Origin: Aphanizomenon flos-aquae FACHB-1287
Lineage (GTDB): Bacteria; Cyanobacteriota; Cyanobacteriia; Cyanobacteriales; Nostocaceae
Reading direction: 5' to 3'
Assembly (NCBI RefSeq): GCF_014698755.1
Contig: NZ_JACJTO010000014.1
Location: 1 to 64,000, forward strand
Length of the DNA: 64,000 nucleotides
The stretch's first letter is position 1. Every line of letters begins with the position of its first letter. This document shows, piece after piece, positions 5,285 through 38,843 of this stretch. The notes under the pieces are model-generated. The model worked only from the letters and a program-made list of their open reading frames with translations, was not told the DNA's origin and searched no databases. Both the position numbers and the translations under genes were made by a program.

Positions 5285-7411
5285 CTAAGAACCTGTGAGC
5301 ATAATATAAGCGCCCCAAATTTGGGCAACAAGTGCGATGACAGTAGACCAAATAACATGAGGACTATTAATTTTTTTGCCACCTTGAGTTTCTAGACTTT
5401 GGATATCAATCCAAGCAGTTGCTCCACGTCGTAACCAACCTGTAACAGTAATCTGTTTGCCAATCAAGTCTTGATGATTGAATGACTTTCCTAACCAGGG
5501 AATATGATTTAATTTGATTAAACCAAGGCTAGATTGCAGGATTAGGTCTTGTGCCAAACAATTGCCAATACCAGGGCGGCCTAACAGTTTACCAGTAAAT
5601 CGGACTTTAATACTATCAATTGGTAAAATGGCGGGATTTGCTAATAAGCTGGTGAAGTTTTCATCTTTTTGAATATTGACAGGTGTAATGTCGGGAAATA
5701 AAGCATTTATTCGGATCACCGTGCCAATGCTAAAGCCAATCAACATAAAACCTGAGACAAAAGACCAGTTATCATAAATCCATTTCAAGTCTAACAAATG
5801 TATAGTGTATGCTGTTTGCCAAATTAACCAAGTCAGACCGGCGAACACAATACCAAGGGGAATTCCCAACCAAGGGGCAATTTGTAAACAAAAGGCTTGG
5901 GGCTGAATGAGAATGGGCTGTGATGGCTTTGTTTGATATAATTCGGTGTCTAAATGCCAATGGCGGGCTATTTGACAAAGGCGTTCGATACGATCACCCA
6001 TGGCAGGATGACAACTATTAATTGTAAACCATTGGCGGTAGGGTTGAAAATTTTCCCACTTGAAAAATGATTCAAAGGGTAGATGACCGGCGGTACTACC
6101 TAAACTTATGCTGTGTTGATATGCAACAGGTGAAAGAATATTCAGACTTTCTAACTGCCAACAGGTTTGTTCTTTGAGGCTAATGTCATGGGCTACACCA
6201 ATGGATATTTTCAGCAAAGCACGAATTAGTCCATTGGGATTACCAGTAATTTCTGCTGCTGTCGCGTCGCTATGGTAAAGCCGCAACCGGGAATTTAGCA
6301 AGGCTGTTCCTGTAAACAGACACCAAATTATATAGTTAACGGCAGCAAAAATTGTCCCTGGCCAACGCCAGATTTTACCTTGATGCTGATTTCCCCAAAC
6401 TGATACTTGCTGGTATAGTCTATAAAATGGTAAGGTTACTAACAGAACTAGGGACATTACCCCAAAATCCCAACGCCCAACTTGTCCTAAAGATAAAGCA
6501 TAGATGGCGGATATTTCATCATCTGCCAGTTGTTCTAATAAACCTTGACTAACGGTTATTCTCGCTGTGCGGGGTAGGTTGCCATAACTGATGATTATCG
6601 GGGCAGAAATTGGTAAGATTCTCAGTTGGGGGGTTGGCCAGTGCCGTTGTTGACAAGCGCGTTGTAATACCCTGGGTGTTTCCCGGCTGTAGGAGTTTAA
6701 TTTCTCTTTGGACAACTCTTCTTGAGCAGAAAATCTTGTTAGTAGCCAGTCGAGTAACCAAGGGGACAATACCATTAAGATTACAAATAATCCTAAAATC
6801 AAGTAACTAGGATCACGATATAAAATTTGGATGGGTTCTAAGTATGGCAGTTGATATAGAATTTGATTAATTAAACCAAATGACAATTTCAGCATTTCTC
6901 GGCACGTCAAAAACAGTGCTATGAATGTGAAGAGGGCAAGTAGTCGGGAAGGGATAATATTAGGTTTGCTTAGGGGTTGCCAGACTTTAGCGCGTCTAGC
7001 ATTTCGCCAATAAATACTAACGGGTTTGATTATTGTGTTACCATCAGCACCAACATAGGCAGTTTGTGGCTGTTGTTGGGCAGGATTTGAACTGGTAAGC
7101 AACCGAGTATTTGATTTACGGGGTTTTTTCTGCTGGTTTTTGTATTTATGCAGGTGTTCAAGAGCAAGGGTTGCCCACTCTTGAACTTGGGGATTACTAT
7201 TAGCAATCAGATTTTGACACAAGGTAATTGCTTTCGAGATTTCACCAATGCGGGCATAAGACATCACTAACCCAACTTGTGCCTGTAAACAAATTTTATC
7301 TTGATTTTGATTTTTGGCCAATGGTTCAAGGTTAGCGATCGCTGTGTAGTAATTCCCCTGCTTGAGGGCAGCTAAACCAGCCTCTAAACATGATTGAGCG
7401 TGAGAAAGCAT
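5285..7411 (-). CDS. TPR plus M48-like membrane protein lacking the HExxH metal site
   Basis: About 708 residues. The N-terminal 100 residues are TPR-like (LEAGLAALKQGNYYTAIANLEPLA). Then come a linker, hydrophobic segments (LLALFTFIALFL; LILGLFVILMVLSPWLL) and a region laid out like the M48 (HtpX/Ste24) peptidase domain. Where family members carry HExxH this protein reads DDEISAIYALSLGQVGRWD (about residues 297-315), so both histidines and the glutamate are gone. The later EADxxA helix reads SDATAAEITGNP. The motif SCHPAMGDRIERL, typical of M48, is retained. Two more membrane segments and a C-terminal domain follow. ATG 7411 is chosen over a TTG at 7447. Inference: a catalytically dead pseudoprotease, perhaps a scaffold. 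Confidence 0.72.
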   Translation of the reverse strand: MLSHAQSCLEAGLAALKQGNYYTAIANLEPLAKNQNQDKICLQAQVGLVMSYARIGEISKAITLCQNLIANSNPQVQEWATLALEHLHKYKNQQKKPRKSNTRLLTSSNPAQQQPQTAYVGADGNTIIKPVSIYWRNARRAKVWQPLSKPNIIPSRLLALFTFIALFLTCREMLKLSFGLINQILYQLPYLEPIQILYRDPSYLILGLFVILMVLSPWLLDWLLTRFSAQEELSKEKLNSYSRETPRVLQRACQQRHWPTPQLRILPISAPIIISYGNLPRTARITVSQGLLEQLADDEISAIYALSLGQVGRWDFGVMSLVLLVTLPFYRLYQQVSVWGNQHQGKIWRWPGTIFAAVNYIIWCLFTGTALLNSRLRLYHSDATAAEITGNPNGLIRALLKISIGVAHDISLKEQTCWQLESLNILSPVAYQHSISLGSTAGHLPFESFFKWENFQPYRQWFTINSCHPAMGDRIERLCQIARHWHLDTELYQTKPSQPILIQPQAFCLQIAPWLGIPLGIVFAGLTWLIWQTAYTIHLLDLKWIYDNWSFVSGFMLIGFSIGTVIRINALFPDITPVNIQKDENFTSLLANPAILPIDSIKVRFTGKLLGRPGIGNCLAQDLILQSSLGLIKLNHIPWLGKSFNHQDLIGKQITVTGWLRRGATAWIDIQSLETQGGKKINSPHVIWSTVIALVAQIWGAYIMLTGS

Positions 7412-35499: not shown

Positions 35500-35698
35500 T
35501 TGAATAATCAGGATAACCAGAATTATAGGATTTACAGGATGGTTATTTGATGGTTAATGGCTGTTGTTTATGTATTTATTCTTCTATCTTAACTTGAGGA
35601 GTATTTACTTTTCTCTATACTAATCATCAACAACTAACGAATAATCAAACAATCACATCCTGTACATCCTTAAATCCTTGACATTCTGATTCTGACAA
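35500..35698. repeat. ~197-bp inverted-repeat element (MITE), left copy
   Basis: The left arm AATAATCAGGATAACCAG...ATTTACAGGATGG and the right arm CACATCCTGTACATCC...GACATTCTGATTCTGACAA are near inverse complements. The interior contains TTTCTCTATACTAATCATCAACAAC. It is closely similar along its whole length, and in the same orientation, to 36981-37177, so the FGE-like gene lies between two direct copies. Confidence 0.78.
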
Positions 35699-35783: not shown

Positions 35784-36911
35784 ATGAATCATCCACAACA
35801 ACCGCGAGAATACGATGCTGTGCTTGGTGGTAATAGTCCATCCCTAGAAGGTGCTGCGGTTTTAGGTGGTATTGAAGGGGTAAAATTACGGTTACAAAAT
35901 CCAGATGCACAGTTAAGAATTGCTGCACTTGAGCAAGCTGTGAATTATGGAGAACAGGGTTTAGATTTGGTGATTGAAGGTTTAAATGATGAATCTTGGG
36001 ATATTCAAAATGCGGCTTATTTAATATTAAATAAAAGGACAGAACCAAGAATTAAGCAAATATTACAAAAGCCTAATCACGAAGGTTTAAAACTAGAACA
36101 AATTGAAGTAGTAACAGTCAATAAATTTGGGGAAATTATTCAACGTCAGCGACGTATAGCTAGATATTTTGTAGAAGATTTAAGTAATGGTGTGATATTG
36201 GAAATGGCGGCAATTCCTGGTGGTAGTTTTATGATGGGTCAATTAGAAGATGAAGGAGGAAGATATAATAATGCAAGTCCCCAGCATCAAGTCACAGTTC
36301 CTAGTTTTTTTATGGGAAAATATCCGGTAACACAGGCACAATATCAAGCTATTATGGGAGCTAACCCTTCTTATTTCAAAGGTAGTAATCGCCCTGTTGA
36401 ATGCGTTAGTTGGAATGATGCGGTGGCTTTCTGTGAAAAGTTAAGCCAAAAAATCGGAAAAACCTACAGACTGCCAAGTGAAGCCGAATGGGAATATGCT
36501 TGTAGAGCAGGAACTACCACACCATTTCACTTTGGAGAGATGATTACAACAGATTTAGCTAACTATGATGGTAACTTCACTTATGGTGATGGGATTAAAG
36601 GAATTTACCGAAAAGAAACAACAGAAGTAGGGAGTTTTGGAGTAGCTAATAATTTTGGATTATACGATATGCACGGCAATGTATGGGAGTTGTGTCAAGA
36701 TAATTGGCATAGTAACTATGAAGGTGCGCCAACAGATGGAAGCGCATCGCTAGGTATCGAAGAAAACACTGGCAAAAGGCCGATGCGCGGTGGTTCGTGG
36801 ATCGGCGATCCTGCGTTTTGCCGTTCTGCTTATCGCTACGACCAATACCTCGTTAGCAACTTCGACTTTATCGGTTTTCGGGTTGTATGTAGTGGTGCGG
36901 CGAGGACTTAG
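35784..36911 (+). CDS. FGE/SUMF1-type (C-type lectin fold) protein with HEAT-like N-terminus, candidate DGR target
   Basis: 375 residues. Residues 25-95 form HEAT-like helical repeats (IEGVKLRLQNPDAQLRIAA; LDLVIEGLNDESWDIQNAAYLILN). Residues about 140-372 are a formylglycine-generating-enzyme/sulfatase-modifying domain: GGSFMMGQLEDE, FFMGKYPVTQAQYQAIMG, CVSWNDAVAFCEKL, YRLPSEAEWEYACRAG, YDMHGNVWELCQDNW, MRGGSW and GFRVVC. This fold is the commonest scaffold for retroelement-diversified proteins. The last 43 residues are GC-richer than the rest and have an unusual run of NNC/NNT codons (see 36783-36911). The enzymatic Cys pair of true FGEs is not evident, so a ligand-binding role is more likely. 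It is flanked by two copies of a ~197-bp element. Confidence 0.85.
   Translation: MNHPQQPREYDAVLGGNSPSLEGAAVLGGIEGVKLRLQNPDAQLRIAALEQAVNYGEQGLDLVIEGLNDESWDIQNAAYLILNKRTEPRIKQILQKPNHEGLKLEQIEVVTVNKFGEIIQRQRRIARYFVEDLSNGVILEMAAIPGGSFMMGQLEDEGGRYNNASPQHQVTVPSFFMGKYPVTQAQYQAIMGANPSYFKGSNRPVECVSWNDAVAFCEKLSQKIGKTYRLPSEAEWEYACRAGTTTPFHFGEMITTDLANYDGNFTYGDGIKGIYRKETTEVGSFGVANNFGLYDMHGNVWELCQDNWHSNYEGAPTDGSASLGIEENTGKRPMRGGSWIGDPAFCRSAYRYDQYLVSNFDFIGFRVVCSGAART
36783..36911 (+). other. Candidate diversity-generating-retroelement variable region (VR)
   Basis: Between the invariant blocks MRGGSW and GFRVVC the codons read ATC GGC GAT CCT GCG TTT, then, after CCGTTCTGCT, TAT CGC TAC GAC CAA, then TAC CTC GTT AGC AAC, then TTC GAC TTT ATC. 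Most end in C or T, as expected if AAC/AAT codons of a template repeat were hit at A positions. The spacing CRSA-x14-GFRVV equals that of DGR targets of the FGE type as I recall them. GC content is visibly higher than in the preceding 300 bp. No reverse transcriptase or template repeat lies in this window, so any DGR would act from elsewhere. Confidence 0.6.
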
Positions 36912-36980
36912 TAGCACTATGCGCTTTTACTCTATTGCTCTTTTCTTGTCTTACCCCCCTTTGCGTAGCAATAAACTTCT

Positions 36981-37177
36981 TGTCTGAATCAGGATATCCA
37001 GGATTAAAGGATTTACAAGATTGTAATTTGATGGTTGATAGATGAGATTCATATATTTATTCTTTTATCTCACTTCATGAATATTCACTTTTCTCCATAC
37101 TAATCATTAACAACCAACCAATAATCAAACAATCACATCCTGTACATCCTAAAATCCTGGACATCCTGATTCAGACA
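36981..37177. repeat. ~197-bp inverted-repeat element (MITE), right copy
   Basis: Starts TGTCTGAATCAGGATATCCA and ends with the near-perfect complement TGGACATCCTGATTCAGACA. The interior TTTCTCCATACTAATCATTAACAACC matches the left copy at 35500-35698. It is non-coding. It lies between the FGE-like gene and ycf46. Confidence 0.82.
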
Positions 37178-37253
37178 AAAAATTTTCTTATTTGCGACTT
37201 TGCGCGAAATAAAAACCCAATAAACTAACAACTAATCCCCCTATTTATACATA

Positions 37254-38843
37254 ATGAATAACCCCCATCAACAACTACTCCAACAAATAGACCTCATGCT
37301 TCGCGCCCGCTATCCCCTACTATATATAGTCGGAGTCGAAGAAGAACCAATAGAACAAGTCCTCCAACAACTCACCCAAATATCCCAGACACCACGACAA
37401 CTATTATTATGGGATATCGTCACCGGTTGGGATGACAACGGAACTGATAAAGGTTCAGTCATGGGTGCATTATCAAGAATTACCAAAACCCCAGAAAATA
37501 CAACCACAATTTTTGTATTGCGAGACATACATTTTATCCTCAAAAACCCCGAAACAGAAAAAAATGCTCCCGTAATTCGTGCTATCAAAAACCTCACCCG
37601 TCAACTCAAACGCACACGCCAAACCCTCATCCTCACCAGTCATACATTAACCATTCCCCCAGAACTACAAGAAGAAGTTACAGTAATTGATTTTCCCTTA
37701 CCCAACATCGAAGAAATAGATTATTTAATTCAGCAATTAATAGTCCCGGAAAAACTTAACTTAAATGGACTAGGAAAAGAACAATTAATTAAAGCCTGTC
37801 AAGGATTAAGTCGGGCCAGAATTAGAAGAGTTTTAGCCGCCGCTTTAGCAGCAAAAGGACAAGTCAACGAAACAGATATTGATAGAGTATTAGAAGAGAA
37901 AAAACAAGCAGTTCGCCAAACCGGAATCTTAGAATTTTACACCGCCAATGAATCATTAAAAAACGTCGGTGGCTTGGAAAATCTTAAACAGTGGGTAAGA
38001 ATGCGTCAAGATGCTTTTACCGAAGAAGCACGACGTTATGGTATACCCAACCCCAAAGGCGTTTTATTAGTAGGAATACAAGGAACAGGAAAATCATTAT
38101 CAGCCAAAACTATCGCCCATGAATGGCGTTTACCATTGTTACGTTTGGACGTGGGCAGATTATTTGGGGGTATAGTGGGAGAAAGTGAAAATCGCATTCG
38201 GCAAATGATACAATTAGCAGAAGCAATATCACCCTGTGTATTATGGATGGATGAAATAGATAAGGCATTTGGTAATATTAATAGTGGGGTTGATGGTGAC
38301 TCTGGAACATCGCGCCGAGTATTTGGTACACTCATTACCTGGATGCAAGAAAAAACCAGTCCCGTGTTTATGGTAGCCACTGCTAATAATGTGCAAATAT
38401 TACCAGCCGAGTTATTAAGAAAAGGGCGATTTGATGAAATATTCTTTTTAAATTTACCTACGGAAAAAGAACGCCATGATATTTTTAAAGTCCACATTCA
38501 AAAAGTTCGCCCTTCCCGACTGCGAGATTTTGATTTACAGAAACTTGCCATAAATACGGAAAATTTTAGCGGTGCTGAAATTCAACAAGTAATTATTGAT
38601 GGAATGCACCGGGCTTTTGGTAGTTTAATAGATGGAAATAGGCGTGATTTTAATACGGAAGATATTTTAGATGCCATATCGGAAACTGTACCTTTGGCGG
38701 CTATTGCTAAGGAACAAATTACCAGTTTAAAACGTTGGGCGGCGGAAGCTGGCGCAAGAACGGCTTCTATTGATACACTGTTAATTGAGGAGTTAAAGGT
38801 TTATTCTCAGCAGCAAGGTTTGGGTCCGTTGGAGGTGGATTAA
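37254..38843 (+). CDS. ycf46: AAA+ ATPase of the Ycf46 family
   Basis: 529 residues. The N-terminal 230 residues (RARYPLLYIVGVEEEPIEQVLQQL) form the Ycf46-specific domain. The AAA+ module follows at about 240-470: NVGGLENLKQWV, Walker A GIQGTGKS, Walker B VLWMDEIDKAF, sensor MVATANN, then LRKGRFDEIFFLNLP and a C-terminal lid. Ycf46 is also encoded in some algal plastids. A cyanobacterial homologue (slr0374) has been linked to regulation of inorganic carbon uptake. It is followed by ycf35 and a DUF2997 gene, the usual cluster. Confidence 0.9.
   Translation: MNNPHQQLLQQIDLMLRARYPLLYIVGVEEEPIEQVLQQLTQISQTPRQLLLWDIVTGWDDNGTDKGSVMGALSRITKTPENTTTIFVLRDIHFILKNPETEKNAPVIRAIKNLTRQLKRTRQTLILTSHTLTIPPELQEEVTVIDFPLPNIEEIDYLIQQLIVPEKLNLNGLGKEQLIKACQGLSRARIRRVLAAALAAKGQVNETDIDRVLEEKKQAVRQTGILEFYTANESLKNVGGLENLKQWVRMRQDAFTEEARRYGIPNPKGVLLVGIQGTGKSLSAKTIAHEWRLPLLRLDVGRLFGGIVGESENRIRQMIQLAEAISPCVLWMDEIDKAFGNINSGVDGDSGTSRRVFGTLITWMQEKTSPVFMVATANNVQILPAELLRKGRFDEIFFLNLPTEKERHDIFKVHIQKVRPSRLRDFDLQKLAINTENFSGAEIQQVIIDGMHRAFGSLIDGNRRDFNTEDILDAISETVPLAAIAKEQITSLKRWAAEAGARTASIDTLLIEELKVYSQQQGLGPLEVD

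Follow-up and report, generated by a model that had tools for sequence, protein, structure and literature searches.

The 3′ end of an FGE-type gene in the cyanobacterial genome studied here (G000; 4.35 Mb in 85 contigs, 99.75% complete) is almost certainly a variable region made by a diversity-generating retroelement (DGR). Its template was found in a same-genus relative and on a plasmid of Anabaena sp. 90, and neither a template nor a DGR-type reverse transcriptase (RT) was found in G000 itself. Taken as a whole, a DGR-made variable region whose generator is missing from this assembly is the best explanation of our results, and we regard it as probable. All positions given without a contig refer to the window, the 64,000-nucleotide stretch of DNA that was analyzed (G000 contig C6:1-64000).

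The target gene and its protein

The target gene is an open reading frame of 375 aa (35784..36911, + strand) with a HEAT-like N-terminus and an FGE/C-type-lectin domain. The Pfam search placed an FGE-sulfatase domain at aa 140-368 (E 8.5e-55); HEAT_2 also matched, at aa 36-95 (E 7e-5), though under the Pfam cut-off. When the protein was compared with PDB entries, the Treponema denticola variable protein 2y3c (E 3e-21) ranked second of 27 sequences, with PvdO first. By these two sequence matches, to FGE-sulfatase and to 2y3c, the variable region sits at the 3′ end of the gene for a C-type-lectin/FGE domain. The AlphaFold model of the protein, with a mean pLDDT of 51.8 and residues 250-375 below 50, was too poor for use.

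The gene is syntenic with its orthologues in G007 and G009, where it adjoins the same AAA+ ATPase gene (37254..38843, + strand; Pfam AAA), and the DNA 3′ of the target (37058-38407) is 95.5-95.7% identical in these two genomes, G009 being at 95.7%. A direct repeat of ∼193 bp brackets the target gene, its upstream copy (35506..35698, + strand) being 85% identical to its downstream copy (36987..37178, + strand). Whole or partial copies of this repeat recur in the orthologous loci of G002, G003, G007, G008, and G009, and the G007 and G002 loci carry extra genes with the same HEAT-like N-terminus and different ends. In layout, the target locus looks like a repeat-bounded gene-cassette array.

A preliminary description of this DNA had inferred a DGR target from codon texture, and the features it named are all present. 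GC content is 0.527 in 36783-36911 versus 0.386 over the remaining gene, the bounding motifs MRGGSW and GFRVVC are both found, and of the 24 codons spanning 36801-36872, 22 have C or T as their last base, compared with 47% in the gene body.

Comparison of the variable region with the template TR-I

The inference from texture is supported by alignment of the variable region (36784..36904, + strand; 121 columns) to the template TR-I of G002. There are 23 mismatches in the 121 columns, and 19 of them lie among the 33 columns where the template has A (hypergeometric P=5.9e-10); the four non-A mismatches all occur at codon position 3. Against the template of pANA02, a 56-kb plasmid of Anabaena sp. 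90, differences occur at 19 of the 33 A, two of the 26 C, none of the 28 G, and two of the 30 T (P=1.3e-9). As a control, the body of the same gene was compared with four orthologues, and no A excess was observed. Because the window region has four non-A differences from each known template allele, it is not a fresh copy of either.

Within the core of 24 codons (36801..36872, + strand), the encoded amino acid departs from that of the pANA02 template at 14 codons, mostly AAC/AAT in the template, and one further codon differs silently. The core is followed by an invariant 3′ end (36873..36904, + strand; beginning GFRVVCSGAA), of which 36873-36902 is identical to the pANA02 template. This segment is IMH-like and may act as a homing anchor. 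An IMH-like end is often followed by a hairpin; a hairpin search of 36860-36990 gave a nonsignificant z=0.73, and the 3′ end equals the template up to 36902.

The variable region is also less conserved than the gene that carries it. Relative to the G007 and G009 orthologues, the FGE body is 77-85% identical and codon positions 1+2 of the variable region are 52-54% identical; for G009 the figures are 85% (DNA) and 52%. Equal conservation, which the preliminary description had said would speak against a DGR target, is not what we observe.

A DNA search of the same genome returned a second gene, on contig C78, that is 86% identical to the window gene over 133 bases of the 3′ end. The two proteins are 60% identical over the FGE domain. 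Over as many as 200 codons upstream, the two genes show 58% protein and 64% DNA identity; at template non-A sites, identity is 95%. In the C78 region, 15 of 15 mismatches to the pANA02 template fall at A (P=2.6e-10).

The other variable regions of this genome were compared with five template sequences (nine genes, 45 comparisons). By uncorrected P values, C48 resembles TR-I (8e-6 and 4e-6 for two alleles), C38 is weakly TR-I-like (1e-3 and 3e-4), C12 resembles TR-III (2e-5), and C6:89545 is weakly TR-III-like (2.5e-3); for C10 and C52, none of the five templates gave P <0.05. In the FGE paralogue at G000:C10:37454-38266, whose N-terminus looks kinase-like by eye, an in-frame TAA falls a few codons short of the usual end.

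Search for a generator in the genome

The earlier statement that the window holds no RT, template repeat, or Avd gene was confirmed. The tblastn searches of the 64-kb window for DGR RT and Avd gave best E values of 0.31 and 0.95, respectively, and TR-I matched only 36784-36904 itself, besides two chance matches of 12-15 bases. Across the whole of G000, 0 matches were obtained with either the RVT_1 profile or the genus DGR RT, and no template was found by BLAST, by pattern, or with the template DNA. What the template searches did return were the 3′ ends of FGE genes, short matches attributable to chance, and a tract on C23. The C23 tract (G000:C23:59300-59800), with three weak template matches, was rejected on reading as a CAA/CAG repeat that mimics the A-rich core. 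BLAST of G000 with the variable region yielded five short matches at E 1 to 6.5, one of which overlaps the C10 paralogue.

Of a complete DGR, G000 retains only an N-terminal Avd stump with a stop, on contig C8, beside the target there; RT and template were not found. The stump is a weak match (E 0.0015) just downstream of a TIR-FGE target gene, the decayed DGR being at L132 5641-5824, and when the bases of the stretch were simply shuffled 2000 times, no shuffle scored as high. The alignment of C8 with the intact G004 DGR runs through the target 3′ end and the intergenic stretch into Avd, where it covers the first ∼24 codons; there the match stops, and the rest of the DGR is gone up to the next gene. 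The two loci have their upstream neighbor in common. This relic shows that a DGR was once present in the lineage and has since been lost. It is not the source of the window region, since it resembles TR-III rather than TR-I: the C8 target is closer to the G005 template TR-III, at an uncorrected P of only 1.6e-3.

From these searches we conclude that this genome very probably contains no generator. A small RT-bearing plasmid could be missing from the 85-contig draft; among the 18 of 66 first-look candidates that were scored, none gave a plasmid backbone match in G000. Since neither template nor RT is left in the assembled genome, the variable region is most likely fixed now, as judged from one assembly of one strain. 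The preliminary description had counted the lack of any template or RT in the genome against its own reading, and as far as our searches reach that lack is literally the case. The DGR origin holds despite it because the template was found elsewhere, all differences between it and the C78 gene are at A, and the genome contains a DGR relic.

Template, RT, and plasmids

The A-rich template next to an RT that had been predicted does exist, although not in the strain's own assembly. On contig C66 of G002, a template copy with AAC/AAT at the variable codons lies outside any target gene, ∼25 bases after the RT gene. In the numbering of locus L053, TR starts at 7041, the RT occupies 5958-7016 and Avd 5520-5873, and two FGE targets come before them. 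The corresponding RT and TR of pANA02, which also has an annotated avd, are 95.7% and 98.5% identical to those of G002. With the template in G002:C66 and pANA02 and no generator found in the G000 assembly, the earlier proposal of a target either orphaned or served in trans gains support.

Contig C66 is plasmid-like. Its integrase region is 88% identical to that of pANA02, further blocks are common to both, and one of its ORFs reads by eye as ParA. A separate 200.8-kb contig of G011, C2, is 91-92% identical to C66 immediately on either side of the DGR segment and 86-97% further along, and has 3.4 kb of other DNA in place of the 11.5-kb DGR segment. The three type-I regions of G011 are all on its 5.84-Mb contig C1. 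By eye, the 3.4-kb replacement consists mainly of one large repetitive, adhesin-like ORF. Elements of ∼30-36 nt with 92-100% identity recur many times across pANA02 and C66, and some ORFs of the two contain IAKRSEGIA-like peptides, possibly the same short element.

An exact 36-mer search for TR-I in viral contigs found none, and every one of 166 phage records of DGR RT was <60% identical. Template position 107, tried as a marker of copying from plasmid to chromosome in G002, was discarded since it also occurs in G005, G012, and G013. On balance we lean slightly toward a plasmid-borne supplier of the TR-I DGR, and a plasmid supplier with chromosomal targets would be the most economical reading.

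Distribution across the genus and tempo of rewriting

Forty-nine variable regions were aligned to TR-I, and the 39 with at most six non-A differences were called type I, a cap that flatters the uniformity of the set; the other 10 were left out. Sequence was retrieved for part of the list of places matching the variable region or template. By this definition, TR-I-type regions occur in 13 of 16 genus genomes; RT-bearing genomes account for 13 of the regions and RT-less genomes for 26. The TR-I template occurs in one of the 16, G002, and the next best template match, at 90%, is a variable region. No DGR RT match at E 1e-40 was obtained in nine of the 13 genomes (G000, G003, G006, G007, G008, G009, G011, G013, and G015), where RT-less means without a DGR-type RT, other RVT_1 proteins being present in G009, G011, and G013 (4, 30, and 6 matches). 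Three of these nine, G007, G009, and G011, are assemblies of 1-2 contigs.

Several genomes hold other templates or RT remnants. In G005, which has a DGR RT, the sole template noticed beside it is TR-III. G006 contig C37 (L134 8352-9591) carries a ∼37-codon RT stump next to ORFs read by eye as a transposase, in a locus 93-95% identical to that of G010, where the RT is whole; G014 has an RT fragment with a stop. Among 60 related genomes, our own included, 31 match the variable region, 14 with and 17 without a DGR RT at E 1e-40, and outside the genus an FGE 3′-end match is by itself no proof of DGR action.

To compare rates, four-fold sites were scored in 403 between-genome pairs from 30 type-I genes with ungapped regions; the pairs are nonindependent, include paralogues, and come from the set capped at six non-A differences. 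Identity at these sites is 54.6% in the gene bodies and 97.9% at non-A sites of the variable regions, and within RT-less genomes the values are 53.6% and 96.7%. A gap of this kind is expected when regions are copied from a common template. In the same capped set, type-I non-A differences from the template amount to 2.9% in RT-less and 1.6% in RT-bearing genomes. Exposure therefore looks recent, as the RT-less regions are nearly as template-like at non-A sites as the RT-bearing ones. Such regions can also stay fixed: in the window-gene orthologues of a close pair, G001, without a DGR RT, and G010, with one, 96% of the variable-region residues are in common.

Origin of the variable region

In the mechanism that we propose, a DGR would copy its TR-I-type template into mutated cDNA, which would replace the 3′ end of the window gene. 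Mainly asparagine (AAY) template codons would be changed and so, probably, would the surface by which a C-type-lectin/FGE sensor domain binds its ligand, where the rewritten residues would set the choice of ligand. A plasmid may have carried the TR-I DGR into the lineage, where the DGR would have acted on chromosomal genes in trans before it and the plasmid were lost together. The FGE domain may bind a ligand for a conflict or signaling module; FGE/CLec domains joined to TIR, kinase, and caspase-like N-termini would fit sensors of such modules, in keeping with the available portions of PMC7159879, PMC10907252, and PMC7517822. In our set, TIR was joined to FGE/CLec by domain match, and the kinase and caspase-like N-termini were read by eye.

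Three other accounts were weighed against this one. The first, with no DGR involved, is that a lectin-like loop has simply evolved fast under diversifying selection; it could appeal to an FGE body (85% to G009) that already changes more quickly than its flank (95.7%). However, selection cannot confine changes to the A positions of a template on another replicon, and this account is contradicted both by the A-bias of the window and C78 regions and by the near identity of non-A four-fold sites in variable regions whose gene bodies have diverged; we give it almost no credence. A second account keeps the DGR and places it on a plasmid that is absent from the assembly but present in the strain or its population, from which it would still rewrite the variable region in trans. 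The plasmid-borne template and RT of Anabaena sp. 90 fit this account, as does the recent look of exposure in RT-less genomes, yet a DGR RT is absent also from the region-carrying assemblies of 1-2 contigs (G007, G009, and G011), and the G001/G010 orthologues indicate that a region of this kind can stay fixed. We consider continued rewriting unlikely.

The third account, which also seems improbable, is that horizontal transfer or gene conversion brought in the gene, or just its 3′ end, in an already diversified state, with no rewriting at any time in this lineage. Synteny with the G007 and G009 loci, where the same AAA+ gene lies alongside, argues against arrival of the whole gene, and less so against arrival of the 3′ end alone, and the degraded C8 DGR indicates that the lineage did host DGRs. 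Points in favor of such an arrival are that the alleles at template positions 68, 74, and 107 occur in several combinations, both in the genus and in this genome, and that the ∼193-bp direct repeats could help cassettes move.

Rewriting by a TR-I DGR that was later lost can be extended to the genus as a whole, and here our confidence is tentative, somewhat short of an even chance. DGRs of one template type may ride plasmids through the genus, rewrite shared chromosomal sensor genes in trans, and then disappear, so that each host is left with a frozen repertoire of its own. The template on the plasmid would be a common code kept intact across species, and the chromosomes would keep the diversified copies. 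If the plasmid model is true, hosts obtain protein diversification on loan, by a horizontal route, and RT-based surveys overlook orphaned targets, as in the 17 of 31 variable-region-matching genomes without a DGR RT at E 1e-40.

Comparison with known systems

Orphan targets left after DGR loss are already known from T. denticola, and component removal has already been suggested for cyanobacteria. According to PMC4891356, T. denticola strains without core DGRs, and thereby without RT or template, keep targets whose variable regions deviate mainly at A from the template of a sister strain; these are read there as leftovers of DGR loss. The window gene presents the same combination: an A-biased region, a genome without RT and template, and a relative that has both. 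The T. denticola orphans lie within one species, whereas ours extend across a genus, with a plasmid template and a visible relic of another DGR. At the protein level, T. denticola TvpA (PDB 2y3c), whose DGR status is covered in the accessible part of PMC7159879, is similar by its FGE-type sequence match and differs in that the window protein has a HEAT-like N-terminus. Thiohalocapsa PB-PSB1, as far as the excerpted text of PMC10907252 describes it, likewise has incomplete loci, candidate remote targets that are diversified, and CLec sensors with TIR or peptidase effectors, but its DGR RTs lie within the same genome. Nostoc punctiforme also retains a DGR, and A-specific variation is reported for it (PMC12691664).

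In the literature searched, which left out most subscription papers and preprints, we found no report of a plasmid-borne template with diversified targets persisting in RT-less species of a genus, none of genus-wide orphaning, and no paper naming both DGRs and Dolichospermum; the available portions of PMC3610870 and PMC8144416 added nothing on orphaning.

The closest parallels are the cyanobacterial DGR proteins in the available text of PMC7517822 (Vallota-Eastman 2020), which have a C-terminal CLec/FGE module, a 3′ variable region, kinase, TIR, or caspase N-termini, and remote targets. That text describes plasmid DGRs in Anabaena sp. 90 and Fischerella, and all3226, where a remnant of TR-VR homology persists with no RT nearby. 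Its set comprises 52 genomes with complete cassettes, so that RT-less genomes fall outside it, whereas in our case RT and template were not found in the assembled genome. The same source suggests that DGR components are possibly removed once a good variant has been selected. With targets in 13 of 16 genomes, the template in one of 16, and visible relics of generator loss, the genus offers a natural test set for that proposal.
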